Part shown: positions 5,679 to 64,000 of the stretch, in pieces
Layout: each line of letters begins with the position of its first letter
Position numbering within the stretch: position 1 is the first letter of the stretch
NCBI GenBank assembly: GCA_029964075.1
Contig: CM057138.1
Span: forward strand, 8,922,932 to 8,986,931
DNA from: Patiria pectinifera
Taxonomy: Eukaryota; Echinodermata; Asteroidea; Valvatida; Asterinidae
Direction of reading: 5' to 3'
Length of the DNA stretch: 64,000 nucleotides
Program-made: the position numbers and the translations under genes
Notes under the pieces: generated by a model
Databases searched by the model: none
What the model saw: the letters and a program-made list of their open reading frames with translations, nothing else
Told to the model about the DNA's origin: nothing

Positions 5679-7164
5679 CATTACGTCATTTTTACATAGA
5701 GTGGGTAAAGTCCTGTAAATGCATGTAGCAACATTTACGTTTTATGCATTTTGTTCCTCTCCAATATAATAACACAACTCAAAATCCAAACTTGGTCACG
5801 ACCTAACCAGTTGAAGTTTCAGGTCAGTGGATATTACACTTTTCGAGGAAACAGGGTGGGGGGGGGGAAGACAACCTTTTGAACACGAAACCCAATTTCG
5901 TAAATAGCACTCTTTATTAAAAAAAACATTGAAGTGTGCATTGAAGACTAAGTTTAATGATGGGGGAGGGGGGGGGGGGTAGATGGAATATACATGTATC
6001 CCGCCACTTTTGACAGGAGGTGGTAGGGTGAGCCACTGTATCACACCCCCCCCCCCCCGAGTGTTTCAGATTGTTCCCAAATCATTGAGGAATCATCTCA
6101 GATATCAAGCTTGAATTTAAATCTAATGAACGCAAGTCATGCACAAAGCCCAAAACGCGAATTTGATAGGTCTACAGAATAGGCTAAAATAAAAATTCGT
6201 CTGCTTCCGGTACCCGACCGACCCTATTGTGTGTGTGTCAACCCTACCCTTTTTTATCCACAAGCTAAAGGAAACTATGTCAATTGTGTCAAACGCAACA
6301 CCCTCTCAACGGCTTTAAATCAAAAACGTTGGTATCATTTCTGTTGTCCGTATTCGTGCGTTTGTTTATTTACAGTTGATAAATTCGGTTGCGAATCTCC
6401 GTTTTCCCCCGCAGCCGCTGGTATTTATACGTGCAACAAGTTTTTCTTTGCGGTTGTGTATACATGCGGCATACAGAAATGGTAGACTGGTTCCCGCCAC
6501 TACAAAGATATTAGCCAGAACGATGATGGAAGTACTGGGCACTAGGCTATAATACGTACGGCGCTGCACATACATGGTCTACATGGCCTATTAGTATTAC
6601 TACTACGTGTCAAAATAATTCCTACTTTTTTGATCCTAAATAACTCTGTTGTTAACCAATGGAATTAAAGCAAAATTTCAGATCATGTAAACAAGACATG
6701 ACGAATTGTATGGAGCGAGTTTCATCAGCTTTATGCAAGAGGGTGAGATTTAAACGCCGTACGAAAAAAATACTCACTTTCAGCGAAGCGCGTGCTGCGG
6801 ACAAAAGCTTCTGAAGGAATGCAGGATCACCCCTGATGTCATTGCACACCTCCTCAATTGTGTGTTAGCAAATGCGTAGAGGGAAAGGTGTTGAATAGCA
6901 TAAACATTATAAATAACAGTCGTCGTCTTTTTTTCTTTTTTTTTCTTTTTGGGGGGAGGTTCCTCCTTTTGCCTCGTCCCCGGATCCACCTTGGTGGACG
7001 TACTGACGGCACAACAAAATGCACATGGAATGGGTGCTTTGATGCATGTAGTCTTCGTCTTTTTATTATTATTATTATTTTTTTTTCTCTCTCTCCAAAG
7101 AAACCACACAGGGAAACTGACTAGGTGCATTATATTTATTTTAAGGTTGAACAAATTAGAAATT

Positions 7165-7234
7165 GACTGGAGCGAGGTTTGAACCTGCGACCCAGATTAC
7201 CGTTCCGGTGCCCAACCAACTAAGCTATCCAGCC
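7165..7234 (-). tRNA. tRNA-like sequence, probably tRNA-derived SINE or pseudogene
   Basis: The minus strand gives a full 7-bp acceptor stem (GGCTGGA/TCCAGTC), A box TAGCTTAGTTGG and B box GGTTCAAACC. The anticodon arm can form but position 33 is C, not T, and the T stem has a mismatch. A functional tRNA is unlikely. Confidence 0.6.
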
Positions 7235-10464: not shown

Positions 10465-10531
10465 ATGGGCTGTTCCACTGCGAAGATTGTCATCAGTCTG
10501 GCGATTTTACTTCTAAAAGCGAATCATTCAG
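10465..10531 (+). CDS. CFB: Factor B-like exon 1: signal peptide
   Basis: ATG followed by 22 codons: a short Met-Gly-Cys-Ser-Thr-Ala-Lys head, then a hydrophobic core (IVISLAILLL), typical of a secretory signal. It ends in phase 1 at a GTATGG donor and joins exon 2 across a 9.3 kb intron. I see no better upstream in-frame start. The distance to the next exon is large, so the pairing rests on phase match, on the signal peptide and on the lack of another candidate. Confidence 0.8.
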
Positions 10532-25500: not shown

Positions 25501-28500
25501 AGGATTAGCGATTTGTGACCGGAATGTAATGGACTCGACCTCAGCACTGGAGAAAGAGAAAATTTCAAAAATCCTTTCCACTTTTGTTCTATTTGATATT
25601 TATCAACTAGTAATGCTGACATCTTCGGCAGCTATACAGGTGGGCCCTACACTTATCTTTCCAACAATGTGAACATCTTTTATTTGTAGTTATCCACTTA
25701 TGGACTACTCAAAGACTCATCTAGCAGGTTGACAACATTGCTGAGGAGTGTACACATTACATTGCGAAATGTAATGTCCTAGTTAAACTGGACATTTTGA
25801 GACAAGCTTTCATTAATCAATAAAAAAATACCTTTTGACCTCTATCCCATCAAGATTGGATGCTGGAGGGGGAAGCGCACAATATGCGCCCCTTCTAGGA
25901 GTTTTGTCATTGTCTGCAGGAATGCTCTTGCAGATCAGCATGACATTTGGTTTAATTTCTTATAATGTCTCTTGTAATACCATTAGCAATCGCGCGGGAT
26001 GTCAGAGGAGGCAAGGGCAACCAAAACATTGGTTATATTACGTTTATTATTTATAAAAAAATGTAAACGGATCAAGTACAAAAAATAACAGGGATATTAT
26101 TATGGCCGCCATGGACTCAATTGTCTTTGTTTTTCGGGATTTCATTTGATAATTCCTGTCTGAGAAGATGTACAGCATTTGTAACGCTACCATAAGTACT
26201 TAATTTCCTATCAGAAACAAAAAAAAGTGTAATGTAAATGGATGTCTGTTAAATCGAAGAACGATTTTATCAAATTTGAAAGTACAATTATGCTACATAA
26301 TGTTAAACTATGGCCTAGGATGACGTTTTTAGAGCAACAACCATCGCCACCACCACCACCACCATGTTACAAATACTGTTCGAATCATATGCTGGGGGCG
26401 AAACATATGGAAATTGGATGTTGGTTTTAGGGCCCAATGTGCCCCTTGCCGGTCCTTGAAGACCAAAAACATTCTGGACCAAATCGGTGTAATTATACTG
26501 ACTTATTTAACATGACATTCTGGTCTCTTTGCTCATTCTGTCTTACCTCCACATGAAATCCTTATTATTTGGATGAAGCCCCAAAACAGGTTTGTGATCT
26601 CGTACTGATGTATGAGCGAATCTGTATGGAATTAAATTCATCAGTTTCAAAAATAAACTACTTACTATATTTGCCATGTTCTGATCAATAGAAATTGAAT
26701 GTCCAGACCCCGGTCACATCCAGTTTGGAGGAAGTAGGTACCTAGAGTCCCGGAAGGTAGGAGGACGTGTAACTTTCCGTTGTCGCTCTGGCTACAGCCT
26801 CCAAGGATCAAGAGTCAGGCACTGCCTACCGAATGGGAAGTGGAATGGTTCATTAACCACATGCGATCATGAGAGTAAGTCGCCTGGGTTTCCACTGCAC
26901 TTGTCAATAATTGTTATTACCATGAAAACTCTATCACAAAGTGAGTCCAGTTTTATTGAATGACGGGTTAAAATGGCAAATTTGGTCAGGATAACCGAAT
27001 CAAATTGTAGGCCTTCATGAACACACTGTATGCAAAGTGTCAGAATATACATATGGAGTATCCTAAATTTTCTTGGTTTTCTCGAAGGTCGGGATTTGTT
27101 CCCGTTCCAATGTTCAATCCAATGAGGTGTATTCACCATTCTACTAACACAGAAATGGTAAAACATATCTATTCAACAGACTGTTTATCAAAGAGGGCAA
27201 GTCCAGTTTCCTTACTCTAAATTGAGCACATAATGACTTAAGTCCCTTTCGTTGTGGTGCCAGGCATGTTTGGAAGCATGTGCTCTATCCATTAGGATGA
27301 CATCCTTCCGATCCAGTGAGCTCTTCAACTACGCGCGATTGTCCCGAAGCGTCAGTCTAATGCTCCAGTTGCGCGCTTCATACACAAAATGCACGCAGAT
27401 CGGACATTAATCACTGCAGTGATTGGTCAAAACACACCTGAATGGGGCGTAATGCATTAGTCTATTGGGATGGCTCAGAGCAGAACATACAATTAAAACA
27501 TTCGCTCTGAAATATATCGATTTATTAAAGCCCCGCCCCTTGGTGTTAATTGACCAATTATAGCCGTGATTTTGTCCGACATGCGTGCACAAGTCAGACA
27601 TGCGTGCACAAGTCAGACATGCGTGCAGCAACCGCGCCCTATAGTCCAGCGGATATGTGAAAAAATTGTGCACTTTTGCATAAAAGCGTGAAACTTGGCA
27701 CAGATGTTTATATTCATGCGAGAAAATGTTTTAGATGTGGAGCCATCGCAAATTTACCCTTTTAGTGGTGGCTCCGAATCTGGAAAACACTAATAATCTA
27801 TATAATTATGTCTTTGTGAAGTTTCCTGCTTTTGTAACAAGTGGGAAAAACCGTTTTCACTGCGTTTACACTGCGGGCACGACAAGTCCCTCCCCCTTTT
27901 TTTTAAATGGATGCCACGCCCCTAAAAGGGTAAATTTGCGATGGCTCCACATCTAAAACATTTTCTCGCATGAATATAAACATCTGTGCCAAGTTTCACG
28001 CTTTTATGCAAAAGTGCACAATTCATAGATATTTTGTCACATATCCGCTGGACTACTATGCACGCGGTTGGAACATACAGGGTGGTATAAATATCGTAAC
28101 GGAAAGTGAAAGGACTATTGTCAGTCTAGTGCTAATGCAGCGTTATTGTATTCTAATGTAATGAATGAATTACTGTAGTGCGTGCGTGACTGGACAGGGT
28201 TTAAATTTATCGCTCAGTGCGTGAATGCACCCATGGGATTGGTTCCCAAAGGCGCATATGGTGCATGTATGCGCGTAGGTACATTACGTGAGGGGTACTC
28301 ACGTGGGCACGCAGGTCAGTTTAGCTGTGGACAGCGAAGAATAAGGTAGTTCGATGCTTGCACTCTGTATTGTGTGTAATGCTGACGCGCGTTGTCGGTA
28401 CAAGCCGTTACTGTGCTAAAGTTACGTTGTGCAATGCTGACGTGCAGCTGTACAAAGTACTGTGCGATGCTGACGCTAGCTTGCATGGGTGAAGCGTAAT

Positions 28501-31500
28501 CGAGTACAAAGCTGAAAAGATTGTTCATTGTTTACGCGTTGAGCATTGCTGGTGCGGTAGTGCATTACGTATACACTGTGGTACATTGCTTACACTGTTG
28601 CTCACTTATGCTGACTTAGTAGTTGCTTACATTGTGGTCTGTTGCTTACATTGTGTATTTCTGATGCTGTCGGCGTTGCTGCTGATATGTGAACAGTTGT
28701 TTGTCTCCCAATTATAATTACAGGACCCCGGATAATAAAACAACTACGCCAATTAATTTCAATATCTGTACATTTATTGATTATTGTTGAATAAATGATC
28801 ATTGTTGCTTAAAGTTACCGACAATTCTGTCTTTGTTACAGGTTCATTGTACAATTAACAGAGTATTAACAATCATTCACAATCGGTGGTATATTTCCAC
28901 AAAAACGGACCTGCATCCTTAGCCTTTAGGTCGCTTTGAGTGGTCTCTCGTCTTGGGAAGAGCCTTGATTTGAGAAGAACATCTTGACTGGCACCCAATA
29001 GGTGTCACATTTGGTCCTAACAGACTTGCGTTGGCCCGTGGAGGTCCCACCACAAATGCTGTCAGAAGTGGGATGATTGTGATTGATGAAGTTGATTTTA
29101 CTGTTAAACAATTGAGTTGCACGTGTTGTGGATTGTCGGTAGGTTTCTGTGGTTATTGTGGAGGTGTGTTTTGAAAGTATGACTCGGAAGGGACAGAGCT
29201 CAGGGATATTTTCCCGAGCGCAGTCGACGCATTTTGCCAGGGAACGAAAGGGTCAATGCATGGACGACCTAACGGTGTTCCTGTCGGGGCAAGGTGGCGT
29301 GGAAAGAATTAGGGGAATACCAATCCGTTTGTTGGTGATATGGGGATACCCCTACACTGGTACATCGCAATCAACTGTTAAGCTTCGTAACTCGACCAGT
29401 TGAGGCAAAGAGCAACTGCAGTGAACGGACATCTCGTCAGTGCAGTGGGTCCTTGGCCACTGAAACGAGAGTCACGTGTCCACTGTGTTGTGGGTCAGAA
29501 GGAAAGTTGGGAGCGACCAAGTCGCAGGCCAAACATTATTCCCAACCCGTATAGTGGGAAAGTACTTCAGCCATTTTTAGTAAAAAAGTAAACATGTTGA
29601 GCGAGGAGCAGGTTACGAGGTGGTTAGCCGTAAGCTTGCTTAGAGATGCTCTACGATTGTCGGTTGACTCAGGCCACAAGTACACGTACAGTGTCAAGCT
29701 GCTGGAGCGCATGTTTGGGTCAGCTCGACGGAGTGACCATTATCTCGTTGAACTGAGATATCGGCACCCAAAGCCGAAGGAGAGCTTGCTGGAATTATCA
29801 ACTCACGAGTTTGCAGCAAGAGCATTCCGTGAGATGCGAGATGATGCTCGGGAGAGGTTGGCGAAGAACCACTTCATAGACGCCGCTGACAATCATTCAG
29901 TTAGGGAGGGCATCAATAGGGCCCGTCCGAAAACTTTGGACGAAGCAGATGCCCTGGAGACTGAAAGTTTGAGGTCGAACAGCACAAATTGCTGGACCGG
30001 AAACCCGCTCAATTAGAGAGGGCCCTGGGCTCCGAAACAGAACAGAGGTTGAGACTAGTAGAGGAAAGTCTCAATAAGCAGGCCAAGACTTTGAAATCTG
30101 TGGCCAAGTTGGTGAAGTCGTTGTCTGGTCAGATTAAAGGCCAGGGTCAGGGCAAGGGCGTGTTGTCTCCTAAGACACACAAGGGCCGAATTTGGTAACT
30201 TGAAGTGTTTCAAATGTGATGAGAAAGGGCACTTTGCCCGGGAGTGTTTGAAAACTCCGAGGGAGGATGGCACTCCAACACAACAGTCAGCCCCGCATAG
30301 GACGCGTGGGAAGGCTAAATGGTATGGAGGGTCCAAAAGACGACTCAGTGACAGCGATGGTGATGGAAAAAGAGGTCCAAATATGAGGATGGGCAACGAG
30401 TATTAACTCTGCCTCAATTCGATATGTTTGAGAATGGGATGGTAAGGTCAACCAAGTGTCAATTACTGATTGACACGGGGGCAACTGACACTTTGATAAG
30501 TAGTATGGTGTATTATCGAATCCAAATGGAGAAGAGACCCGTCCTGGAGACGGAAGACGTTCAGGTGAAGCAAGTTGACGGTAGTGATCGAGCTGTGCTG
30601 GGCATATAGCTTGGTTTGAGGTGCAAGTTGGTAGGGCAACGCACCAAGTGAAAGCAGTGTTTGCCGAAATGAAGCACAGTGGTATCCTTGTTATTGATTT
30701 ACCGGTGCCCATGGGTGGAAACTTAGACTTCCGTTGTTTGAGTGGAGGCTTATATGTGAGCGAATCAAGTGCACGAATGGTGCAGGCGAGCCCTTTTTGG
30801 GACGAGTTATAGTTCCCAAAACTACGGTCCCGGGTATAATTGCTCAGAAGGGTCCCAACTTGGCCGGACCAGCCATTTCTGGAACCGATAGAAGGCTGTG
30901 GCGATTTAGCCAAGAAAGGCTTGGTGTTGACCGGATCTCTAGACTGTTGCGCTGTTCCGTTGCGAGTCTTCAACCCTGGAAGGAGAAAATAGTTGCCCGT
31001 GACGGAGGACGACAGCTGGAGTAATCTCCAAGGACAGTTCAATTCATGGTGCGTTGGATGTGGTGGCAAATGCGAGGCAGAAATTGCCCCAGCACTTGCC
31101 AGATCTGCATGAAAGGGGTACAGCCAATGTAGAGGATAGGTACCATGGGGATGCCCAGAAGTGTTTGGTAGACTTCTAGGACGTGTTATTTACGGATAGT
31201 CAAGCTTACATAAATACTGGTGTTGCTAAGCCGATGAAAGAACGGATGAGGCGTCATCCGTATTGCCATCAGGAAGAAATCCAGAGGCAAGTTAGCGATC
31301 AGGAGAAGAGGGGGTGGGGGGGGGGGGTGATTGAACCTTCCGACAGTACAGAAAGTTGAATTCGGTTACCATCAAGGATGCCTATCCTGTGATGTGCAGT
31401 GATGAAACATTCGATGCGCTGAGCCGGGCGAAGTGGTTTTGTACGCTTGACTTGGCGTCTGGGTACTGGCAAGGCGCTCTGGATGAGGACACCAGCCAAA

Positions 31501-34500
31501 AGTCAACCTTTGTTGTGAGAAACGGGTTGTACCGGTGGAAATGTTTGCCTTTCGGGCAATGCAGCGCCCCGGCAACGTTTGAGCGGCTCATGAAAAAGGT
31601 CATGGCCGGCTTGCGGTGGGAAATCCTACTGATTTGGATGGCACTGTCGTGTTTGGTCAAACGGTGACGGATACCCTGGATCGTCTCCGAGTTGTCTTGG
31701 GCAGGCTGAGAAACGCCCGGCTGAAATTGAAGCCAAGTAAGTGTCCTGTGTTTCAAAGGCTTACCTACGGCAGGGGTAGCCACGGATCCCCAGAAGATTG
31801 AGGCAGTGGAAAACAGGCCAGTTCCAAGGTGTGTACGAGATGTTAGAAGCTTTAGGGCTACAGGGGTTTGCAGAGAACGAGAGAGTCCACTTTATGCCTT
31901 GACCGAGAAATCAAAGGAGTTTGTGTGGACTGAAAGTTGTCAGATGGCATTTGACGAGCTAAAGAGCAGGCTCCATGCCGCTCTAGTTCTGTCATACCTG
32001 GTGAAGGTATCGGGGAGGTGTTGTCGCAGGTCCAAGATGGTGACGAAATTTGAAAAAGTGCTTGCGTTGGTGTATGCGAGCCGGATGCTCAGTAAACGTG
32101 AGCGAAACTACTGTGTCACTCACAAAGACTTCTTGGATGTGGAAGTGTAAATATTTGTACGGCAGGAGAGTGACGGTCAGACCTGATCATGGCGCATTGC
32201 GATGGGTACTTAAGTTTAAGAACCCCGAGAGTCAGCTGGCAAGATGGAATAGTCGTTGAACACGGAAGCGGCAAGAAGCATGGAAATGCTGATAGTTTGT
32301 CGAGACAGTAATGCAAACAGTGCGGCCGTGATATTAGTCAGTGAGGATAAGGCAACTGGTGTGGTGCCTGAGGGGCAATCTCACTGTGGTGATTTTTTTA
32401 TTTTAGGGCGTAGTCACCCAATCACCAAGTTATTTAAGGGAAGCACAGTTACGGGATGATACCGTTTGTTTCCTCATGAGGTTGAAAGAAGAGGGTGATG
32501 GTCGTCCTGAGTGGAAGACAGGTTCCCACTTGTCAGCAGCCTGCAAGACATATTGGTCGCAGTGGGACCAGTTGGAGGTCATTGAAGGAGTTCTGTATAG
32601 GCGGGGGGGGGGGGACTCCGATGACAGACAGTCCGTCCGGTGGCTAATTGTGCTGCCATCAAAGTTCCGTAAGGGCATTTTGTCTGAGTTGCACGATCTG
32701 GTCAGATTGGGGTCATTAAAACTCTGGCCAAATTCAAAGCCAGGTACTTCTGGCCAGGCATATCTGCGGACGTGCGGTCATTCCTCCGAGGCCGCAATGT
32801 CTGTGCCAGAAGAAGTCAGCTGCTAAGAAAAGGGTTGTACCCTTTTACAGCAATACCGAGTCGGTGTTCCGATGGAGCGAGAAGCAATAGACTTGCTCGG
32901 TCCATTGCCCATAACGGACAATGGTAATCGTTGAGTGTTGGTGGTAGGCGGCTACTGCACTAAGTGGATGGAAGCATTTCCGCTTCCTGCCGCTACTGCA
33001 GTTAGGCCTACAGTCGTGCACACATTGGTGAATGACTTTGTCTGTCAGTTTGGGGTGTCCCACGAAATTCACTCCGATCAGGGCACAAACATTGAGTCCG
33101 CTGTGGTCAGTGAAATGTGCCAAATTCCTGGCATATCAAACACTCGTACAACCGCCGATAATCACAGAATCCTTAGTTATGGGATGTACACATGCGCAGA
33201 AACCAAAATTCCTCGCTAACCCGTGAAATACGCTCATTCTGAGTACGGATTTCTCTGTTACAGTAAGCAGGGAGATTTTGCTAACGGTAAGTAGAGCCAT
33301 AAAATTGGGCCCCGCTCTAATCCGGATTGAATTTTCAGATAAAGAAGTAAACTATACTCACCAGAAAGGAAGAGAGAAGGGTGCGCATAGTAACAATCGT
33401 GAAAACAAACATAAAAAGTGTTTCTCACTGTGTGCTGCTTCTCTCATGACAGGTTTCTACTGCCCAAACCCGGGCATTCCTATTGGAGGGCGAATGGTTA
33501 ATGCACGGGGTGTGCGATTCCGGAAAGGCGAAAGAGTGTCGTATGAATGCAACAGAAACAGGGTGTTGCTAGGATCAGATGAGCGAGAGTGCCTCAAATC
33601 AAGAGGCTGGAGCGGGGAACCTCCAACATGTCGAGGTGATAGAGTTAAGACAGTTTGATAAAAAGGAGAATACCAATTTTGTATTTTTGTAAACTGAAGT
33701 CATCCTATTTGTAGGCCTCTGTTTAATACACTGCGCGGTCGGTTCTCAGAAATATGGTGGTTCAGTTTATTTCTTGCTTCAGTTGCCAGTCATTATTCTG
33801 TCGGTCAGTAAAACAAAAAGTCTCTTCCTACAGGGCCGTATGACTTTGATGACAGCGTTGAGGTGGCAGCAAGGATGGCATACGACGTCGAAGGCCTTGC
33901 ATCCAATCTGGAAACCACCACCGCCGACAATGCACCAGGTCCCAGAGGCAGGTTCATAGATCTTAGACACCCTGGAGGGATTGATGTCTACTTTGTTTTT
34001 GATGCATCTGGTAGCATTCCAAAGGCTCACTTCGAGTACTACGTGGACCTGGCCAAAGTCCTTGTTACACAGGTATGAACCTTCATCTGTAGTCTCTTTG
34101 TTGTTCCTTGGTCCGTCAACAAATGATGATCTAATTCTGGAAACAAATCGTTTGAGCTTTGTAAAGATTTACATATATCTGTGTATGAAATTTGTTCATT
34201 ACAAGAATATACATCGGGGTTAATGGTTGATCACACCATGGAGGAATTCCTCCATGATCACACACAGTGAACCACCTCCCCTCCCCCCCCGCCCCCGCTA
34301 TGCAGAGTGAGGGAGTGCTGTCAGCTGTGGACAGTTTCTAGATGACGACACAGATTCTGTCACAATTTTGTCTGTCTAGGTTGGTGAGGCTAACGGTCGC
34401 CCACGTGCTCGGTATGGAGTCTGTCTGTTTGCATCTGAGGCTCAAATGGCTATTCATGTCTCCGAACCTCAAAGGACCATACGAGCAGTGCACTTTGCTC

Positions 34501-37500
34501 TGGATGTTATGATCAAACGCCGATTACAAAACGACTACCAAATAGGTAAACCCAATAATTATGTTAACCAAGCAGTGTACATCACTGAAGTAATAAAGCT
34601 TTGGACCGGCTATTTTAAAACGTTTTTCATTCAAATTCACAAACTCTAACATTCAATTTCGTCCGATTTTTTTACACGCTTTTACCAAAACCAATTAGTC
34701 ATTTACCACTCAATTTCAAGCTGTGTTTTCTTATGGGTTCCACCTGTCCTTAAGCACGATTCGGCACATATTCACTCTAGCTCATGATTTTATCGGAGCC
34801 GTATCATAAGGTAAGTCCGACGCCTTATAATTCCGACGCCTTACAAGTCTGACGTCCGACAAACGAGGCTTCGGATTTAGGAGGCATCGGAACTTGCGAA
34901 CATCCGGCCCTCAGTGGATTTGATATCAGTGGCGGCGATCCGTGGGGGAAGGCGTCGGACTTATGAACCAAAATAAAAGTAAAAATTTAATTGTCGGACC
35001 TACGAGGCGTCGGACTTTTTGGGCCTTTATTTGGTTGGGGGATGAGATTTTGTCGGACTTATGAGGCGTCGGACCTATAAGGCGTCGGACTTGTATACCT
35101 ATGATTCGTCGGACCAAGTAGAAAACTGAACTCAAATAATTATTACTGTTACCAAGAAAAGTGCAAAGATTACCAAGATCAACAAAACAAAATAAATAAA
35201 ATAAACTAACGAAAAGAAAGTGTTAAAATGAAACTAAAGAAAAATGTCAAAAACCACGATTCTTTCATCTTTAAGTCACAGTGTAATAATTATACTTAAA
35301 ATATTGAGGCTAGCATTATTTAAGAAGATAAAATCAAAATCAAACAATAAATCTATGAGGAAACAAGGAAAGAATAAAGTGCAGAATTATTCTTATTAGC
35401 TTCCTACCTGCCTTGAGCTGAAGATGTCACAATGAAGTGTGACGAAATTCAACAAAATTAGGATTAAATTGTGCGGCATTAGACGAATCTGATTCTGAAT
35501 GACAAGGCTTGGATGAGACGAAATCGAATACTCCGTGACGAAAATGTGTGCTCCTAGTTTAAATTTGCCTGGAAGTGTGTCTAAATCGATGCAGGTGACC
35601 TGTGGACGAATTTGAACATTAGAATCGGTAAATTCGAATGATAAACGTTTTAAAATAGCCAGGAAAAGTTATACTTCTTACTTAATACATACACAAGAAT
35701 TTATAACGATCATGGTGCAATTCGTTCCAATCCAAGCGTAGAAAATGTCACTAATCTCACAACAGCAGACACCAGACAGCATCTTGAATTATACGTACAT
35801 GTAATTAGATATACGTACATAACACGAATTCCTAAGAAGTTCTGGTCAATTTATTTCCACAGGAAAGGGAACAGCAACGGGCAAAGCACTCAAGCTTATC
35901 CACGAAAACATAAAGGAAGATGATAGGACAGCAAAGAAATATCTTTTTCTCTTCACAGATGGTAACTGCTTTGTTCTTTATTGAAAAAAATAATTGTAAT
36001 CCACACCAGGCTTTAACTTAAGGCTCGAACATTATAATACATGAACCATAGGCAGTGTTGGAAAAGGTTTAGTTTTAAAGGTTTTCCCAGTTATTATTTT
36101 TAACACTTATCTATATTAAAGAAGTTCCTGGTCAGATTTGCCCAAAGGTTCCGAGTTATTTTTTCACCAGACACTTTTGCAGGTCGAAATGGCACTTTTC
36201 AGGGGGAAAAATACACTTTTCTGGGTATTTTTTTCCTGTTCTGTCTTTTGTGATGTTCAACGGTTGCTTTTCACGTTGATATAAAAACGTTTGAAATGAC
36301 ATACTTAAAAACACTATAAAAACACAAAAAATAGCATTTGATAAATGTATACATTGGAGCTCATGTACGGCTAATTTCAATGCATTTCTGAGGTATGTTA
36401 AAATGTCTGAAGATTGTTTTTCTTTATTTAACATTTAAAATGTTTTAATTTGAATTCATTTTCCCCCGAATGATTTATAGTTAATATTGCAACACGTGAT
36501 TAATTCACAGTTCTTAGAAACACTTGAACTGTTTATTATTTTTCTGAAATGTCTAACCGTATTTAAATGTCTCCTTTATGACTAGGCAAAACAAACATGG
36601 GTGCCCATATTGGCTTGCCAGAGACAGAAGCAAAAGTCCTGCGCGAGCATTATCATGTTGAAATCCACTGTATTGGAGTTGGCCTCGAAACAGATGTCAG
36701 GGAACTGAGGGCGATTGCATCCGGCCAAGATAACATGTTCTTGATAAAAGACTATTGGGATCTTAACATCATAGCCCAGAATATTACGAGACAGAAATTG
36801 GGTGAGAATCCGATTTGTGATTTGGTTTTATTGTTTTTGCATTATTATTGTGTGTTTTTGTTTTGTTTGTGGTTTGTTATTGTTGATTGTACCATTTTTT
36901 TTGTTGATGCTTGTAAGTGCTGTATGGTATTCTTTGTTGTTTAAGTTGTTGTTTGTTGTTTGTGTTGTCATTTGTTGTTGTGGTGGTTTCGTTTGCTTTA
37001 TGCCCCTGGTATTTGTTGGTTGTGTTTTTGTATTGGCTGCATTTTTTCTGTGATTGTGTTGCTTGTGTTTTGTGATGTTGGTGTCCTGCCGTCGCAATAT
37101 ACTATAGGGCCTACATGCATTTGTTGCTTGGGCTGAGGATGCAGAACCATTCAAAAGGTTTATCCCTTGCTCATCTTATTTTTCAGACTACTCGCCATGC
37201 GGGCGCAATGGAAAATCACATCAACAGCCTTCGTCAAGAATAGTCGGCGGAGATAATGCTAAAACTGGCGAATGGCCCTGGCAAGTGGGTCTGTTCTGTG
37301 AGGACGTTACAGGAGTTGATGAATATGTGGTATAATTAAACTATTTCTTTCTTCTGATAAAAAAAATCGCGTGCTAATCTGTACATCATCGTCTGGTCAG
37401 TACATTCACCGAGTAGCAATCCCTATTTTGCCCAAGTTTTTAGAGTTACAGGCGGTACGTGCTCATCCCCTCAACTTGAGTCGGCCTAGAACAGCTATGT

Positions 37501-40033
37501 TTAGCCAGCATCAATAGGCACTTCTCTAAAAAAAACCTGTTACGTACATGACAACGCACACCCGAGAGGAACTGTTTAAAGTGTTCATTTGTACTTTTCC
37601 AGCCCAGGTTTTTCTGTGGTGGTAGTCTCATTGCTCGTAACTGGGTTCTGACAGCTGCACACTGCTTGCGACAATGCCCATGGTCTGACATCAGAGTATA
37701 CACAGGTAGGAGTGAAAGAAACGTCGTTCAGTAATTGGTATGGGTAGTTGGGTTGCACCATAATTCTAGTCACAAGTAACAAGCTCTGAATTGCAATCAT
37801 TTTGTCACTTGACTTGGAACTGCACGTCCTGGATTTGACTTGCAGTGGTGACTTGGTTATAACTCTAGTCCAATGCCCAGGCAATTCACTTATTGCTAAC
37901 AAGAGGATTTGCGAATATAATCCTCTGCTCGCATCTTTACGCATTTGATTACCCAACCTACCATAGTCACTCATTCTCGTATGTCCGCCCACTCAAACAT
38001 TCATCGTATATAATCGACAAAAACTAATTCATGCTTAAAATCCAATTCAAGCCACACACGTCACCGGAGAAAAAGTGTAACTGAATGTAATAGTGCCATC
38101 CCTTTTCCAAACACCAAAAAATAACTCGTTTCATTTACCTATGTTTCAGGTATAATCAACAAATCCAAGAGAAAACTACAAAATGTTAACCCATCCCTAG
38201 TGTACAACTTGGATGGTGAAGACGCCCTGATAAGACATGAAGAATACAATTTCCGCAACCTTGATAATGATATAGCCCTGCTGCGTTTGAGCCGGAATGC
38301 CACATTCAGTCCAAACGTCAGACCTATCTGCATGCCACAGCCAACAATGGAAGGTGAGGTGACTCCAGAATCAATGACCGGGGGACGTGGTAATTTTGTG
38401 AAGTGTTGTTTTGGATTTCCGGTACCAGCTTTATCGCTCCCTTATCTTGGTCTTAGTGTGGATTTGGAATTGTGTCTGATAATGCAGCCGGTCCCAAGTC
38501 TTGGAAATCACGGTCAATCCACCGCAGTTGCAGAGGTCGAAATCAAGAAAATGTCTGCGAAACTTTAACACTTAAGGGCCTGTCACATCATATGCGCTCT
38601 CAACATATATTTAATACATTTAACAATCGCATCAAGGACGCAAGAAAATAAAAATTTTCTGTATTATGTGGCCAGAAAATAGCTCAAGCTACGCTCAAAC
38701 TGCGCTCATCCCGCGCTTATGATGCGCTTAACTCGCTCTCTATGCGCCCCTGTCAAGCCCAAGTACTTGATCTAGTCCCTGCCGCTGCGCTCTCACTGCG
38801 CTTCTCGCTGTTGATACGTCCTAAAGTAGCTTGCGTCGCGCTCTCTATCCGACCAAAATACGCTCACGTGACGTCACTTGCGCTGTATAAATACCACGAC
38901 AAAACGGTCAATCCGCAGTCCAGTTTCAAATGTATTCGACAAGTTCATCGCAGTCGAATTACTTTCTCATGGAGACTACATCGACTGTCTTGCGCCTTGG
39001 CTGCCTCAATGCCTCTTTAATGTCCCACGATTCACGCTCTTACAGCGCCCGAGTTGCGTCATTACGGCGCCCTAGCCAGAGCGCAGAGGTGTTGCGATTC
39101 TTTGAGCATGTTCAAAAACTTTGGCGCTCATCGGAGACCATAAAGACCCTCCGGCGCCCATCAGGCGACCTATGTAGTTGTCGTTGTCTAGTAGTTGTTG
39201 TTGCGCCCCAGCCATTTTTCAAGGACGCAGTGAGAGCGCATATATGATCGCAGACAGTGTGACAGGCCCTTAAGAGCCGATTAATTCAGAGCATTGCTTT
39301 CATGTAGCGCGCGAGATGTATTATCATGTAAGGACACAGGGTAGAGTTGCCAATAGTTCCTCTGCCAATTGGCAAGATTTTCGGTCGTTCATAAAGTATG
39401 CATAGTGTATCACGCGTTCTGAAGTCTTGGAAACAAAGGGATGAACATTTTCTCTTTTGGAATTCAAGAAACATTTCTAACTGGTCACTAAATGGCGATA
39501 AAATTGCATGGGGTCGTATTATGGGAGCAGAAAATACGTCTTGTTTTATTTAGCCTTAAACTAAGCTTTTGGTTTGAATTCATCTAGATTCAACAATTAA
39601 TGCACAACGTGGAGACGCCTTCTTAACTGGCTGGGGATCCAACCAAACGTGTATCATCGACGATGAATGCCACGGTTCTTCAAAAGACCTGAATCAACTT
39701 GTTGTTCCTCTGCGCACAGATGAAGAATGTCAGGAGAGTCTTAGACAGCACTACACTATGGGCTACAGTGATTCTGATTACAAGCACAACATATCTTTCT
39801 GTGCGGGCTATGAAGAAGGGAACAAGGATGCGTGTGTTGGAGACTCGGGAGGGCCAGTCATGAGGCAGATGACCGTTGCAGACGGCAGCAAACGATGGGT
39901 CCAGATAGGCATTGTCAGCTGGGGTGAAGGCTGTGCTCAAAAGGGTCGATATGGAATTTACACCAGACTCTCAGCTTACAAAGATTGGGTCCAAGATCAC
40001 ATTGGCTCTGCACCCTATGCTATACAAAACTGA
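10465..40033 (+). CDS. CFB: Complement factor B/C2-like protein, complete gene, 16 exons
   Basis: Joined exons 10465-10531, 19805-19945, 21498-21560, 22483-22674, 23735-23947, 25120-25329, 26692-26874, 33453-33635, 33834-34072, 34380-34545, 35863-35961, 36586-36801, 37187-37329, 37603-37705, 38150-38353 and 39588-40033 give one open frame of 955 residues. All introns are GT/AG and the phases match throughout. Domain order is signal peptide, six CCPs (about 24-417), VWA (about 467-657) and S1 protease (676-946). This is the factor B/C2 architecture, but with six CCPs where vertebrates have three. In that family the protein binds C3b through the MIDAS and CCPs, is cut just before the VWA, and the Bb fragment cleaves C3. 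CCP6 and the VWA linker resemble vertebrate factor B closely, so orthology at family level is firm. Unlike vertebrate factor B, the protease domain keeps an Arg675-Ile676-Val-Gly-Gly activation site and Asp888 at position 189. No frameshift or premature stop was seen. Confidence 0.93.
12259..13110. repeat. Pair of direct repeats, about 180 bp each
   Basis: 12259-12444 and 12935-13110 match closely from ATTACC(A/G)GCACACTTTCGC to GAGTGTGATTCTAATGC. Copy 2 lacks about 12 bp. They are 490 bp apart and could be the two ends of one element or a local duplication. Confidence 0.82.
13389..13518. mobile_element. Small hairpin MITE
   Basis: 13398-13426 and 13478-13506 are exact inverted copies (AACAATTGTTGACTGCTGTG...), with TATACC/GGTATA extending the match outward. 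The 51-bp loop is GC-rich. Confidence 0.72.
15159..16505 (-). CDS. Candidate antisense gene nested in intron 1, three exons, product unknown
   Basis: On the minus strand three exons join in one frame: 16505-16433 (begins DFDFDENLNSRTSC), 15592-15559 (34 nt) and 15267-15159 (LRREYPKVSFLDICDIIYT, ends at TAA). Each border has AG/GT: acceptor ACCAG, donor GTAGGC; acceptor TTTAG, donor GTAAGA; acceptor TTTTACAG. The phases (1 then 2) fit exactly and the joined 71-residue reading looks protein-like. The 5' end is missing; a possible first exon (ATG GCG GCG, 18380-18349) ends in phase 2 and does not join directly. I do not recognise the protein. It could be a real nested gene or the tail of a dispersed copy. 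Confidence 0.45.
16741..17570. mobile_element. Fold-back element with 9-bp target duplication
   Basis: Nearly all 830 bp form one long inverted repeat, ends TAGTCCGAGTAACTTGG and its complement, with the centre near 17,215. The arms differ by indels; the left arm is longer. GTACTAGCA is repeated exactly at 16732-16740 and 17571-17579. A 9-bp duplication with very long terminal repeats fits the Mutator superfamily. No transposase is encoded. Confidence 0.88.
17606..18152. mobile_element. Second fold-back element, hairpin ends, 9-bp target duplication
   Basis: Ends TACTCCTAGAACTATGAGG and its complement, and each end itself forms a hairpin (GAGGCTCCGC/GCGGAGCCTC). Inner inverted segments continue toward the centre. 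CAGACATGG is repeated exactly at 17597-17605 and 18153-18161. Non-autonomous, Mutator-like by duplication length. Confidence 0.88.
18787..18818. repeat. Perfect 32-bp palindrome
   Basis: Half-site CTGTGGGATATCACGT followed directly by its exact complement, no spacer. In intron 1. Confidence 0.9.
19805..19945 (+). CDS. CFB: Factor B-like exon 2: CCP1, first part
   Basis: Residues 23-69. After the AG acceptor the frame opens with a glycine-rich lead and Cys-Pro-Glu-Pro, and runs through the second CCP cysteine to Lys-Gly-Tyr-Thr-Leu-Gln. The donor GTAAG follows in phase 1. CCP1 is split across two exons here, while CCP2-6 each use one exon. Confidence 0.88.
20253..20443. mobile_element. MITE family with shared core, copy 1
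   Basis: Ends TTATGGTGTAAATCGAGGA and exact complement. The core holds CAGCTCTCATTGGTTTTGTA. Close to copy 2 (20884-21078) and sharing the core with 58976-59164. Confidence 0.75.
20610..20696. repeat. Short inverted repeat
   Basis: CCTTGTGTGGACCT at 20610-20623 and its complement at 20683-20696; a small hairpin, perhaps a MITE. Confidence 0.65.
20884..21078. mobile_element. MITE family with shared core, copy 2
   Basis: Same orientation and ends as 20253-20443 but diverged (ATGGTGTAAATTGAGGA; TCCTCGGTTTACACCATGAA). Core CAGCTCCCATTGGGTTTGCA. Confidence 0.72.
21498..21560 (+). CDS. CFB: Factor B-like exon 3: CCP1, second part
   Basis: A 63-nt exon, residues 70-90, with the third and fourth CCP cysteines and the conserved Trp (EWSASPTCE). 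Phase 1 on both sides. Too short to stand out as an ORF; it is recognised by the frame continuing from exon 2 and the CCP signature. Confidence 0.88.
21876..22320. mobile_element. Non-autonomous hAT-like element
   Basis: Starts CAGCGGCGTAGCTAC and ends GGCTACACCGCTG, with CATGGGGA repeated exactly at 21868-21875 and 22321-22328. An 8-bp duplication and CAG-type ends are those of hAT transposons. Its right part holds a long poly-C tract. In intron 3. Confidence 0.85.
22483..22674 (+). CDS. CFB: Factor B-like exon 4: CCP2
   Basis: Residues 91-154, one complete CCP: Cys at the start, FKCKSGF near the middle, Trp before the last Cys. It is unusually basic, with several Arg/Lys in a row (RRKRQLRGR), which could be a polyanion-binding patch; that is inference. 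Phase 1 on both sides. Confidence 0.9.
22748..23219. mobile_element. Tc1/mariner-like MITE
   Basis: Long inverted arms: starts CAGGCAGTCCAAAAACGC and ends with the diverged complement TTATTGGACCACCCTG, flanked by TA on both sides (22746-22747, 23220-23221). The ends CAGGGTGGTCCA are typical for Tc1/mariner relatives. In intron 4. Confidence 0.82.
23735..23947 (+). CDS. CFB: Factor B-like exon 5: CCP3
   Basis: Residues 155-225, a complete CCP beginning SCQSPGVLHGA and ending GEWSSPMPICRG, with four cysteines and the conserved Trp. Acceptor TTCAG, donor GTGAG, phase 1 both sides. Contains one N-glycosylation sequon-like Asn-Trp-Thr. Confidence 0.92.
25120..25329 (+). CDS. CFB: Factor B-like exon 6: CCP4
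   Basis: Residues 226-295, a complete CCP (VICTSLL ... VVDYRCDAGYRILG ... DLDPICSG) with four cysteines and Trp. Two Asn-X-Thr sequons are present (NRT twice). Acceptor AACAG, donor GTATGT, phase 1 both sides. Confidence 0.92.
25363..25409. repeat. 10-bp tandem repeat just after exon 6
   Basis: Five units of AAGTCCTCAC-like sequence (ACAAGTCCTC, TCAAGTCCTC, ATAAGTCCTC, ACAAGTCCCT), 34 bp after the donor of exon 6. Confidence 0.85.
26692..26874 (+). CDS. CFB: Factor B-like exon 7: CCP5
   Basis: Residues 296-356, a complete CCP (IECPDPGHIQFGG ... VTFRCRSGYSLQG ... KWNGSLTTC). The exon ends GAG-A before a consensus GTAAGT donor, phase 1. The following 6.6 kb intron carries the Ty3/gypsy remnant. 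Confidence 0.92.
27578..27628. repeat. 19-bp tandem repeat
   Basis: Three units of GACATGCGTGCACAAGTCA, the third incomplete. Abuts the fold-back element at 27631. Confidence 0.88.
27631..28069. mobile_element. Fold-back element in intron 7
   Basis: Left arm to 27764 and right arm from 27923 are almost perfect inverted copies of roughly 130 bp (for example CATCTAAAACATTTTCTCGC on the right). The loop is about 158 bp. No coding content. Confidence 0.78.
29150..33226 (+). mobile_element. Decayed Ty3/gypsy-type LTR retrotransposon in intron 7
   Basis: Pieces in the usual order on the + strand: gag-like segment (29594-30016, continued in another frame), CCHC zinc knuckle (30200-30250, CFKCDEKGHFAREC), aspartic protease (30466-30500, LLIDTGATDT), reverse transcriptase (31356-31800, LDLASGYWQGALDEDT and LPFGQCSAPATFERL), RNase H and integrase core (32870-33160, HSDQGTNIES). 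Order protease-RT-RNase H-integrase is that of Ty3/gypsy. It is defective: many frameshifts and stops, part of the RT palm missing near 31345, the catalytic RT loop scrambled near 31625, and integrase cut short. A 5' LTR may lie in 28.1-29.05 kb; a primer-site-like stretch sits at about 29058. No 3' LTR was found. Confidence 0.85.
33453..33635 (+). CDS. CFB: Factor B-like exon 8: CCP6
   Basis: Residues 357-417, a complete CCP starting FYCPNPGIPIGGR. The CxNPGIPIG motif is the hallmark start of the last CCP of vertebrate factor B and C2, so this module lines up with vertebrate CCP3. It ends WSGEPPTCRG. Acceptor GACAG, phase 1 both sides. Confidence 0.94.
33834..34072 (+). CDS. CFB: Factor B-like exon 9: linker and start of VWA
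   Basis: Residues 418-497. The alpha-helical linker (YDFDDSVEVAARMAYDVEG) and the sequence PGPRGRFIDL match the factor B region cut by factor D; Arg457-Phe458 is the likely equivalent scissile bond, by position. The first MIDAS element is complete: Asp474, Ser476, Ser478 (FDASGS). The exon ends in phase 0. Confidence 0.93.
34380..34545 (+). CDS. CFB: Factor B-like exon 10: VWA
   Basis: Residues 498-552, the beta-sheet strand RYGVCLFASEA and following helix of the VWA fold. Enters in phase 0 and leaves in phase 1. Confidence 0.92.
34808..35117. repeat. Iteron-like cluster of TCGGAC/GGCGTCGGAC units
   Basis: At least ten copies of GTCGGAC or its complement GTCCGAC, often with TTATGAGGCG between them, at irregular spacing in both orientations, in intron 10. 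The left edge is reversed relative to the right, as for subterminal repeats of a transposon. Confidence 0.7.
35863..35961 (+). CDS. CFB: Factor B-like exon 11: VWA, second and third MIDAS loops
   Basis: A 99-nt exon, residues 553-585. It supplies GKGTATGKAL (MIDAS Thr, probably Thr556) and YLFLFTDG (MIDAS Asp585). All metal-ligand positions needed for Mg-dependent C3b binding are therefore present. Confidence 0.92.
36586..36801 (+). CDS. CFB: Factor B-like exon 12: end of VWA
   Basis: Residues 586-657: KTNMGAHIG, then HCIGVGLETDVRELRAIASG and a C-terminal helix, matching the end of the factor B VWA domain. Phase 1 both sides. Two NIT-type sequon positions may be glycosylated. Confidence 0.92.
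37187..37329 (+). CDS. CFB: Factor B-like exon 13: activation site and start of protease
   Basis: Residues 658-705. A Cys-Gly pair (662-663), which in the family bridges VWA and protease, is followed by Ser-Ser-Arg675 then Ile676-Val-Gly-Gly and EWPWQVGLF. This is a canonical S1 zymogen activation site. Vertebrate factor B and C2 lack this N-terminus. The donor after GTG (GTATAA) leaves phase 0; a GTGGTA donor one codon earlier is possible. Confidence 0.9.
37603..37705 (+). CDS. CFB: Factor B-like exon 14: catalytic His
   Basis: Residues 706-739. CGGSLIARNWVLTAAHC carries catalytic His725. Two acceptors lie 5 nt apart (CCAG/CCCAG); only the upstream one keeps the frame, so the exon starts at 37603. 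Confidence 0.91.
38150..38353 (+). CDS. CFB: Factor B-like exon 15: catalytic Asp
   Basis: Residues 740-807. NLDNDIALLRL carries catalytic Asp780, followed by NVRPICMPQP, the usual S1 segment. Phase 1 both sides. Confidence 0.93.
38576..39269. mobile_element. TTAA-flanked element, copy 1
   Basis: Ends GGGCCTGTCACA and its complement, flanked by TTAA at 38572-38575 and 39270-39273, as for piggyBac-type transposons. The 694-bp interior is rich in GCGC-type words and has no transposase. In intron 15. A related copy in opposite orientation is at 41180-41898. Confidence 0.82.
39588..40033 (+). CDS. CFB: Factor B-like exon 16: catalytic Ser, stop
   Basis: Residues 808-955 and TGA. DACVGDSGGPV holds catalytic Ser894 and Asp888 at chymotrypsin position 189. 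VSWGEGCAQKGRYGIY gives Trp-Gly at 215-216 and Tyr929 at position 225. Both predict cleavage after Arg/Lys; Tyr225 is the residue linked to Na-dependent activity in clotting and complement proteases. A short tail follows the last helix. Confidence 0.95.
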
Positions 40034-40837: not shown

Positions 40838-41179
40838 TAGTTGGCTGTTGTGTTGTGCGTTATATAGTGTGAATGATTTTAGGATTTTATTGGCGCTCCC
40901 CATTGAAAATATGGCATGAGCCCCCTATTGATTTTCGGAGGCCTAAGTGTCTGGAAAAAAATAACCGGTCAACATTTCAGCACGCCTCCCTGAAAAAATT
41001 CTGGATCCACCGGGCTAGCCCCCACCCCCCACCCCCCAAAAAATATATTGGTTCTAGAACCGCGCCTGGGCGGGGGGGGGGGGGTGTTCATTACCTCAGA
41101 GGGAGTTTAAGACCAATGGACCATCATCAAAACAAACAGCAAAGTTGTGTCATACCATTGCATTAATGCATTTATTAAA

Positions 41180-41898
41180 GGCCCTGCCACACTGTCTGCG
41201 ATCTTATATGCGCTCGCACTGCGTCCTTGAAAAATACCTGGGGCGCAACAACTACTAGATCGCAGCGACAACTACATAGGTCGCCAGATGGGCGCCAGAG
41301 GGTCTTAATGGTCTCCGATGAGCGCAAAGGTCTTTGAACATGCTCAAAACAATCGCAACACCTCTGCGCCCAGGCCAGGACGCCGTAATGATGCAACTCG
41401 GGCGCTGTGCGAGCGTGAATCGTGCGACATTGACATGGCATTGAGGCAGCTTAGGCGCAAGGCAGTCGACGTAGTCTTCATGAGAAAGTAACTGGACTGC
41501 GATGAACTTGTAGAATAATTTTTTTTAAACTAGACTCTGTATTGACCGTTTTGTCGTGGTATTTATACAGTGCAAGTGACGTCACAGGAGCGTATTTTGG
41601 TCGAATAGAGAGCGCGACGCATGCTACTAGGACGTATCAACAGCGAGCAGAGCGTAGTGTGGGCGCAGTGACAGCGCAGCGGCAGCGACAGATCGAGTAA
41701 TTGGGCTTGACAGGGGCGCATAGAGAGCGAGTTGAACGCATCGTAAGCGCGGGAAGAGCACAGTATGAACGAAGCTTGAGCTTCCTTTAGACAGAAAGTT
41801 GTCATTTTACTGCGTCCTCGCTTCGATTGTTAAATTTATGAAAAAACAAATGGTCGCAGTAAGGTCTCCTATGAGAGCGAATATAATGTGACAGGCCC
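41180..41898. mobile_element. TTAA-flanked element, copy 2, inverted
   Basis: Starts GGCCCTGCCACACTGTCTG and ends ATGTGACAGGCCC. The interior matches the complement of 38576-39269 along its length, with many substitutions. TTAA lies one base before the left end (41175-41178); the right flank has decayed to CTAA. Confidence 0.8.
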
Positions 41899-47833: not shown

Positions 47834-47948
47834 ATGAAAGCGAAGATGGTGATTCCTTTTCGACCAACCGTTCTATTGGTATTGGCAGTGTCAGTCTTGC
47901 TGGTTTTTCCGAGGACTGCAGAGTGCGATGAGCAGACGGTCACTGAAG
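47834..47948 (+). CDS. CCP/Ig gene exon 1: signal peptide
   Basis: Residues 1-38. A basic head (MKAKMVIPFRP) and a long hydrophobic core (VLLVLAVSVLLVF) form a clear signal peptide; a second Met at residue 5 is an alternative start. Ends phase 1 at GTACTC. Confidence 0.85.
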
Positions 47949-50900
47949 GTACTCAATTATAAGTATTTTGTGGAGAAAGTTGTTTCTTTTAAAGGTTGAC
48001 TGAAGGCGCAAGGTTTAGAAAAAGGTTTTTAAAATAATGTGCGTAACCAGACACTTGTTTTTTTTCCACCAAGAGCCGTGGAAGAATCTACCCTCAACAT
48101 TTACTTGTGTGTTCATTGAATTATTTTAGAGTTTAACAATTAAAATCTTTGGACGTATTAACAAAGTGTGCTGTAAATTATTTATGACATTATTACAAAA
48201 CCATTTGCTCTCATTGGACTGTACAACTTTCTCTAACCTCGATGTGCGTGCGGTGTGTCCATATGCATACAAAGCTTAAGTGTTGTTGGTATAAAAGCCC
48301 GAGGTACGAGGAGGGAAAATGAAAGCACTCATGCCAAGCCCTTGAATTTGGTTGACCTGATATTCTGTTCGCCCCTGACGCACGATCTTACGTCGTATTC
48401 GTATCCAACCAGGATGTGGAGAACGGGATGAGTACTATTCCCTCCGCCATGTCTGCAAACTGGCTTGCGTTACAACGGATGACTGCCAAGCTGCTGAGCA
48501 GTGCCTGTGCGATGGAAGATGTGGACCAAGCTGCGTTGATATCAGTAGGTCCTTCTGTTGATTTAGTAACTTGTTAAATCGAGACTAAGGCCACAAAAGG
48601 AGAACAACGTCCTGGGTCTACTTTTAAGAAATTGACATGTATGCCGATAAAATTATCGCCTCTTTACAAACGAAGAACATATTGCTAGCTGTCCTTGAAT
48701 ACAGCGTGGATTTCGACCAAGCAGCGAGAACATGTGACCGCCGTTACAAATCATTTGTGGAGTCCCTTTCCCGCTTTCCACCCTTTTTAAACAAAATTAA
48801 TTTCATATCTCAATACCCGTTTATGACTTTAATTTCACTCATCTCATTTCAATCATTGGGTATGTAGGGGAAAATGTTGACTGTTCCTATATATAGAATT
48901 CCATGGTCAGTGTAGTTCTGCCTACTGACTTGAGACCCCTTTTCATGGGTTGGGTTACAGTAAATTGCGAAGCGGAAATGGGTATAGTGCCGACCAGGTT
49001 CATTACTTTCTTTCTCTCCCATAAGGTGATACATCATCGTGTCCACTACCAATAACCGTCCATAACAATGCCATGGTATGGCTGTCTCCTCCCCAGGGCG
49101 CCTCGGTGCCAGGGGGCTTCGATACAACCGCACATTTCAGTTGCAATCCCGGGTATGAATTGATCGGCCACGCGGAGTCAACCTGCACGTCGACTGGCCA
49201 GTGGTCGGAGGACTCGCCCTACTGTATCAGTCGTAAGTTTCTCCCTGCATGCGTTGAACAAATGATACTCGATTGTCAGTCCACATGAGTCTAAAAAAAG
49301 GGGGGGGGATAGTAATTAGAGACAGAGTAATATGTCTTCCTGCTCCTCACAAAAAAAAAAACACTTGTCTACCTTTGTGACGTCATGGCAAAAAAACACA
49401 TAGTTTGGCCCACTTGAAGACAACAAACACCATTATATACGAGCCTGGACAGGACATCAGGTCGGGCATATGTGTTATTCTATCGTCGCAAACTGGGTGT
49501 TTTTTAGGGGCGGAGCAGGGGCACATACGTGTAATTTTGTTTCTATCCTAACTGTTGGTAAATTACCTAAGCAGAAGGACACTCTTAAAAAAAACTTTTA
49601 TATCTTATAGTTGTTTCAGATTCATGACCATTTGGTTTTTTTTTTACAAGTTCAATTTCTGTAACGAAAAAAAAAGCACAGCCACAAAATGAAGTACATG
49701 TACTTTATACCTATCCCGTTACTTTATATATTGATATTGATGTCAACGGGTAAAATAAGGGTGGCAGCTTCCATAAACACACGTCAAATGTATGCAGCAA
49801 GTTTTTTTAATTGGCAACTTAGAGGGATGTTCCAAAAAATAAATAAATACAAACAAAATCCCTAATAGGCCTACACCCAATTTCTAAATATTCTCTAGCA
49901 TATTCTCAATTCATCATTTTTTTTTAGGGTGGACGGGTAGACATTTGCCCAACCCCATTGACACCCCTGTGGACACCCATGTTGTTAAGTGTGCATTAAA
50001 TTAACAGCAATATGACTTCGCACCTCGTCTTCTTCTGTTTTTCTTCTTTTCCCCCTCCTTTTTGTGTGTGCTATTCCGTTAGGGGGGAATTGCCCACTCC
50101 TCGCGACGCCAACGGTTGCAAATGTTGTGAAATCATAAGAACTTTAAATTAAAAAACTTCAACACTTCATTTATAGAAATGAACAAACATATCCTTGCCG
50201 TCGACCTGCAGTAGAGGCTTCAGGTAGAGGTTTTGGGCAGTCTGATGATGATGATGTCAATGACGATAATAACGTGCTTAAATGCTCCTGTCACAAAAAC
50301 TTCATATGCTCCGTTGCCATTTTATATTCTTTAAAATTGTGAACTAACAAGACCCTTGCCCAGCTATTCTAGGATAGGATTTCGTTTAGGTTTCGGAAAT
50401 ACATGCATATATACATATATATGGTGTGGAACCTTTTTTATTCTATTTTTTAAATTAATTAACATATCCTCCAAGGTTGATTTTGGATGAAACTTAATAT
50501 TAGATAGTTGGATAAGCACATTGACACCAAAATAAGCTTGTTAAAGGCACATAGGATCCTTTACATATATCCCAAAAGTATACCGAAATATTATCCAACG
50601 CTTACTTGGATTAAAGGTCATACTGGTATTAAAAAATACCGTGAGTTGTTGGTCTGGATTGCTTGGATGCAAATCAAGAAATGTAGGAGGTTTTCAACTA
50701 TCAGTTAACTTACTGATTTTTGTAAAAAAAAAAAAAAGAGTGCTGCAGACGATATCGTTTTCCATGATCAAAAGTTGTTCAGTGTTTTCAGTTGTCTTGA
50801 AAAAATGCAATATCCACTGAGCTGATAAACTTCAACGGGTTAGGCCGTTAACATTCTCCTTCGGATTTTGTGTGGTGGTATTATTGAAAACGAACAAAAT

Positions 50901-63646: not shown

Positions 63647-64000
63647 GTAAGAGCTTCCGACCAAACTGGTTACTGAAATATTGTTCGCTCTCGATGGACC
63701 CCAGTTATGGCGACAAAGCAGTTGATTTGTGGGTGCAGATCAGTAAATTTACAGACAGAGACACCAATGTTCAATACCCTCATTAAAAAACAATGAGGAA
63801 AATGCACACATTTCTCCAAGTTGTGCAAGACATTACACGTACATCAAATTAATGTTGTTGGTGGTTAGGGCCTTTCAGCCCATCACTATTTTGAAAAAAA
63901 AAATGATCCCCGCACTCCATTGAAAAGAGTGCGACCTTTAAAGCCAGCCATATTGTCCCAATTTCCCCTATAACAATTTCCTCTATAACGTACATGTACA

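Follow-up and report, generated by a model that had tools for sequence, protein, structure and literature searches.

In animals without a known factor D, the means by which factor B becomes activated is left open in two papers, as far as their accessible text goes (PMC3351276, PMC4840205). The first of these states, in the part available, that no factor D was identified in the horseshoe crab (PMC3351276), and according to the accessible part of one survey, many phyla possess proteases resembling factor D (PMC11312191). The locus described here raises this question in the sea star Patiria pectinifera, within a stretch of 64,000 nucleotides (C10:8922932-8986931, referred to as the window) of an assembly that totals 613.5 Mb and comprises 1020 contigs. 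The window holds a factor B-like gene in whose protease domain an initial annotation had noticed a classical trypsin-type activation site. A complete classical switch in a factor B would provide a testable answer to activation without factor D. It would also give a direction for the change behind the unusual human enzyme.

Gene Model and Domain Order

An exon model was rebuilt from the genomic DNA, independently of the exons of the initial annotation. It consists of 16 plus-strand exons between window positions 10465 and 40033, all 15 introns are GT...AG with consistent phases, and it encodes a protein of 955 amino acids in which a leader and six CCP repeats precede a MIDAS-bearing VWA and a protease domain of trypsin type (SP). 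The features are listed below.

10465..10531, plus strand: exon 1, encoding residues 1-23; its ATG start codon opens a leader with a hydrophobic stretch, followed by a GT donor in phase 1
19805-19945 and 21498-21560, plus strand: exons 2-3, CCP1, split by an intron in the exon model, as it also is in the neighbouring twin gene (twin A, below)
22483-22674, 23735-23947, 25120-25329, 26692-26874 and 33453-33635, plus strand: exons 4-8, CCP2 to CCP6 (exon model, Pfam Sushi)
33834..34072, plus strand: exon 9, linker with the putative factor D-like site R457-F458, start of the VWA, MIDAS D474-x-S476-x-S478 (exon model, alignment)
34380-34545, 35863-35961 and 36586-36801, plus strand: exons 10-12, remaining VWA, MIDAS T556 and D585 (exon model, Pfam, alignment)
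37187..37329, plus strand: exon 13, C662 (c1) and candidate activation site R675-I676-V-G-G (exon model, SP alignment)
37603..37705, plus strand: exon 14, SP with catalytic H725 (c57) (exon model, SP alignment)
38150..38353, plus strand: exon 15, SP with catalytic D780 (c102) and C800 (c122) (exon model, SP alignment)
39588..40033, plus strand: exon 16, SP with D888 (c189), D893 (c194), S894 (c195), Y929 (c225), G930 (c226) and the stop codon (exon model, SP alignment)

The span first singled out (37187-40033) corresponds exactly to exons 13-16, that is, to the SP domain. Pfam Trypsin covers residues 676-942 (E 2.7e-54), with position 1 of the profile falling on Ile676. Pfam also matches the VWA and five Sushi stretches, which together span CCP1-6; the count of six CCP, like the signal peptide, was read by eye. 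CCP repeats, VWA and SP thus follow one another in a single predicted chain, which is the order of factor B and C2. An alternative end of exon 13, one codon earlier (V705), is possible and leaves the key SP residues unaffected. The VWA exons 9-12 form a 1-1 phase cassette, so that the frame is kept on their loss or gain.

It is highly improbable that this order arose by joining exons of two genes in the model. The model derives from genomic DNA alone, and intron 7 carries, by eye, a large retroelement-like stretch, but the VWA and SP exons all lie inside 6.2 kb, and the arrangement of exons 2-16, phases included, recurs in twin A. The retroelement-like stretch (window 28080-33150) contains broken reverse-transcriptase-like and zinc-knuckle-like frames, also recognized by eye. 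A mobile-element-like inverted repeat pair of about 660 bases was also observed, with one copy in intron 15 (window 38610-39271) and the other downstream of the gene (window 41178-41843); the two are 81-91% complementary over five arms.

A Candidate Factor D-Type Site before the VWA

Alignment to human FB indicates that the MIDAS pattern DxSxS...T...D is complete in the window VWA (D474, S476, S478, T556 and D585). When this VWA was compared with the PDB, 32 sequences passed in total; FB matched from E 3.7e-6, C2 was also among the matches, and the best one was proximal thread matrix protein (E 2.9e-12).

In the linker before the VWA, R457 aligns to C2 residue 243 (query residue 1, G456, to C2 residue 242). 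The C2b chain comprises 509 of the 752 residues of full-length C2, so it starts at residue 244, and R457 therefore takes the P1 position of the factor D/C1s site. The human FB chains give the same register once the alignment is extended by 3-5 residues. Like factor B and C2, the window protein thus has an Arg at the position that factor D or C1s would cleave. In effect, the proposal of the initial annotation that R457 is a factor D-like site agrees with its alignment to the P1 Arg position of both human proteins.

A Candidate Classical Activation Site in the Protease Domain

In the SP alignment, R675-IVGG occupies positions 15-19, and D888, D893, S894, Y929 and G930 correspond to positions 189, 194, 195, 225 and 226. 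The catalytic triad is intact (H725, D780, S894), the pocket has Asp189 and Gly226, and there are 12 cysteines, including C662 and C800, which form the c1-c122 pair. The sequence thus combines the features of a classical S1 zymogen, namely the R675-I676 site, Asp194 (D893) and the c1-c122 cysteines, from which both cleavage and the disulfide are predicted. Arg675-Ile676-Val-Gly-Gly, Asp888 (189) and Tyr929 (225) had been reported by the initial annotation, and the independent exon model recovers them under the same residue numbers. The accompanying suggestion that a cut at Arg675 might release the protease is less convincing: release is unlikely because the usual c1-c122 disulfide has both its partners here, C662 and C800, which should tether the SP.

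In their accessible passages, figures aside, PMC3351276, PMC4714745, PMC4840205, PMC11312191 and PMC12847986 do not describe a factor B whose Ile16 site is cleavable, and no invertebrate factor B paper mentioning IVGG or Asp189 was found among the open-access papers searched. This is weak evidence of novelty, and specialists may know the site from invertebrate factor B alignments. If other invertebrate factor B proteins share it, it would be ordinary among them and would still bear on the rooting of the family.

Twin A and Other Copies in the Genome

Five SP copies of this kind were found in the genome, that of the window included. The other loci are as follows.

C10:8905867-8920161, minus strand: twin A, upstream of the window gene and divergent from it; exons 2-16 open, with six Sushi stretches, VWA and Trypsin
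C10:9130417-9153640: copy B1, SP exons only, with two exon-15-like pieces, Ser195Ala and Gly226Val; a pseudo-protease or pseudogene
C10:9155844-9160264: copy B2, SP exons with R-ISGG, preceded on the same strand by CCP exons; no detectable VWA
C10, about 21797981-21800396: copy C, SP exons with R-VIGG, preceded by CCP-like exons that matched only weakly (E 0.25 to 9.4); no detectable VWA

Twin A retains R-IAGG, D189 and Ser195, and its exons 2-16 agree with those of the window gene in order and phases; where an exon length differs, it does so by a multiple of three. Across the five SP copies, Arg15 and D189 are always present, Ile16 and Ser195 occur in four (C has Val at position 16), and G226 occurs in three. 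Judged from these sequences, the R675-IVGG site is no oddity of one exon, since the twin carries R-IAGG and Arg15 is found in 5/5 copies; chance is ruled out by the same constancy of Arg15 together with the exons 2-16 that the twin shares.

The copies also bear on a reading in which only R457 is cut in life. The SP would then work as a single chain through the VWA and C3b, as in vertebrates, and R675-IVGG would be an unused leftover from a trypsin ancestor. Such disuse is possible, if rather doubtful. It would agree with the drift of residue 17, which is Val in the window SP, Ala in A and B1, and Ser in B2, and with the faster evolution of the SP between the twins, but it fits poorly with the presence of Arg15 in all copies and with a residue 16 that is Ile in four and Val in one. 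Between the twins, dN/dS is 0.47 overall (930 codons), 0.43 in the linker and VWA, and 0.70 in the SP; for exons 13-16 the values are 0.80, 1.66 (35 codons, very low dS), 0.56 and 0.67. The SP is the faster part, so the R675 site could be decaying.

Synonymous divergence between the twins is patchy, with 0.04 in CCP4 (25120-25329), 0.04 in exon 14 (37603-37705), 0.40 in exon 16, and 0.2-0.6 elsewhere. This pattern suggests gene conversion between the divergent twins. It is also compatible with a chimeric origin, in which the CCP-VWA part is factor B and exon shuffling or gene conversion exchanged its SP with the SP of a CCP-SP protease, making the classical site lineage-specific and not ancestral. 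This history, which appears unlikely, would be in keeping with the 1-1 phase cassette of the VWA exons and with B2 and C, SP genes without detectable VWA whose four-exon SP layout is like that of the window (phases by eye), but loss of the VWA in B2 would leave the same pattern.

The window type of VWA was found in two genes only, its eight genome matches being divided equally between the window gene and twin A (four each). The three other SP copies (B1, B2 and C) therefore stand in the same genome with no VWA detected. A 3-row VWA profile run over 7202 ORFs, those of the window included, revealed no hidden VWA near B2 or C (C10:9130000-9219999 and 21785000-21824999); its hits were confined to the window, namely the four VWA exons and a further ORF at E 6.6.

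A vertebrate-type factor B elsewhere in the genome was also considered and rejected. The human FB SP gave 19 matches (E up to 1; the best candidates were scored), of which the best (E 1.5e-7, 30% identity) is a generic SP on contig C21. Of the factor B copies, twin A alone was matched, in its exon 16 (E 0.42).

Comparison with Human FB, C2 and Other Complement Proteases

The human FB and C2 SP domains used for comparison are letter-for-letter matches to PDB chains. Human FB and C2 share with the window protein the CCP-VWA-SP order (for the human proteins, according to the accessible text of PMC4714745), the MIDAS, the linker Arg of factor D/C1s type, and the catalytic triad. Vertebrate FB and C2 have three CCP according to the same source (PMC4714745), whereas the window protein has six. 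The protease domains differ more deeply. The distance from Cys1 to PW is 26 in 5/5 Patiria pectinifera SP copies and 16 in human FB and C2, and in the alignment this gap of 10 residues falls over the activation site. Where the window SP has R-IVGG, D189, Y225 and G226, the human domains have N or S at 189, R225 and D226, and additional residues between c220 and c225, some of them basic, give them a loop that is absent from the window SP. The statement of the initial annotation that vertebrate FB and C2 have no free Ile N-terminus and a different S1 holds for the human proteins, which are without the cleavable Ile16 segment and Asp189, both present in the window protein. Conversely, the vertebrate-type combination of a missing Ile16 site, Asp226 in place of Asp189, and a basic loop before 225 is not found in the window SP.

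According to the accessible text of a 2025 structural study, the oxyanion hole of C2b does not reach its full form until the convertase has bound substrate, and Arg714 stabilizes it (PMC12847986). In the SP alignment, C2 residue 714 falls inside the extra c220-c225 loop. The absence of this loop from the window SP, like the constant Cys1-PW spacing of 26, argues against an unused activation site. Relative to the trypsin family, the vertebrate FB/C2 protease domain is the one that stands out, being shorter at the site and having a basic loop, and its state is probably derived.

Sequence identity of the window SP is highest with plasma kallikrein (41.1%) and trypsin (38.5%), followed by MASP-2 and C1r (34.6% each), C1s (33.2%), C2 (25.5%) and FB (22.8%). 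When VWA and SP together served as the PDB query, plasma kallikrein came first, and neither FB nor C2 was among the best 60 of 565 matches. In a tree of 15 SP rows, a long branch of their own sets FB and C2 apart, and the genome copies stand with trypsin and kallikrein (89/91). Constraining the genome copies with FB/C2 gave p-AU values of 0.182 (6 rows) and 0.251 (7 rows), in a tree weakened by the long vertebrate branch. A protease-domain tree had been proposed by the initial annotation as a check on membership in factor B; the window SP does not group with FB/C2, but a common grouping is not rejected (p-AU 0.18). For the chimeric origin, this failure to reject one clade is unfavourable, within the limits set by the long branch, and the grouping of SP C with the factor B copies (90/90) is favourable.

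Among other complement proteins, C1r, C1s and MASP-2 share Ile16, D189, Y225 and G226 with the window SP. Their CUB-EGF-CUB-CCP2-SP architecture (PMC11312191, accessible text) is unlike that of the window protein, in which Pfam found no CUB or EGF domain at E 0.001. The spider Lox-FB and similar factor B-like proteins have factor B architecture and a conserved MIDAS, but with two CCP and a lost catalytic triad (PMC4714745, accessible text), in contrast to the six CCP and intact triad of the window protein. The horseshoe-crab proteins TtC2/Bf-1 and TtC2/Bf-2 have five and seven CCP, respectively, followed by VWA and SP, with a factor D-type Arg predicted by their authors (PMC3351276, accessible text).

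A Proposed Activation by Two Cuts

Two Arg sites can be read in the window protein, R457 between CCP6 and VWA, and R675-IVGG between VWA and SP. This suggests a factor B-type proenzyme with a complete classical switch, for which two cuts instead of one are possible. On balance, we are inclined to regard the window protein as a secreted factor B-type proenzyme (CCP6-VWA-SP) with two trypsin-type activation sites in series. In this scheme, a C3b-like partner would be bound through the CCPs and the MIDAS. The cut at R457 would shed the CCP part and leave VWA-SP on the target, and the cut at R675 would free Ile676 to pair with Asp893, making the SP fully competent. The C662-C800 bond would hold the cut SP to the VWA. 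With D888, the active SP should cleave after Arg or Lys, which would fit an Arg site of the C3 type as well as R457 and R675 themselves; trans-autoactivation may therefore be possible.

A broader proposal can be made only tentatively, and we think it may well not hold. The C3 convertase of this lineage would be a two-cut zymogen whose Arg-specific SP performs both the R457 and the R675 cut in trans, giving an amplification loop without factor D. The one-cut, substrate-induced FB and C2 of vertebrates would then be a derived simplification, reached through the 10-residue loss and a compensating basic loop.

Evidence from the horseshoe crab points partly towards an unused second site. In horseshoe-crab plasma, TtC2/Bf-1 appears as a 63 kDa N-terminal (CCP) piece and a 74 kDa C-terminal piece, and TtC2/Bf-2 yields a 70 kDa C-terminal piece; for TtC2/Bf-1 only the factor D-type cut is reported in the accessible text (PMC3351276). 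Two pieces only are what the relict reading of R675 would lead one to expect. A disulfide-held second cut could nevertheless be hidden in such blots, whose reducing conditions are unstated in that text (PMC3351276). Direct or indirect cleavage of factor B by MASP is mentioned as a testable idea in the accessible text of a sea anemone paper (PMC4840205).

Chromosomal Neighbourhood

The TED_complement profile has 30 exon matches genome-wide and is not specific to C3, since it also matched 4 of 14 control genomes, all four of them bacteria. Ten of the matches lie on C10 in four places (8.60, 9.36-9.37, 9.48-9.49 and 9.72-9.73 Mb), and the remainder are on contigs C1, C13, C15 and C779. Roughly 0.3-0.8 Mb separates the C10 thioester exons from the two factor B genes that have a VWA. 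For the exon at 9.371 Mb, the best PDB match is C3, and 26 of its 29 matches are C3, the other three being alpha-2-macroglobulin. The NTR profile gave two genome matches, on C18 and C1, and none on C10; the ANATO profile gave none in the genome, but it matched no control genome either. Linkage of C3 and factor B on one invertebrate chromosome is thus possible as judged from these profiles, and the neighbourhood is worth following. A VIHKEM motif was observed in the C10 thioester exon that best matches C3.

Downstream in the window, a second plus-strand gene apparently starts (47835-63650), with a leader exon, numerous CCP exons and one or more Ig-like exons recognized by eye, and it continues beyond the window. 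Sushi was confirmed on both of the two exons tested, and of the Ig-like pieces one remained below the cut-off and the other had no match. Finally, a tRNA-Thr(GGT)-like sequence, either a gene or a SINE relic, was detected by ARAGORN and Rfam on the minus strand at window positions 7164-7234.
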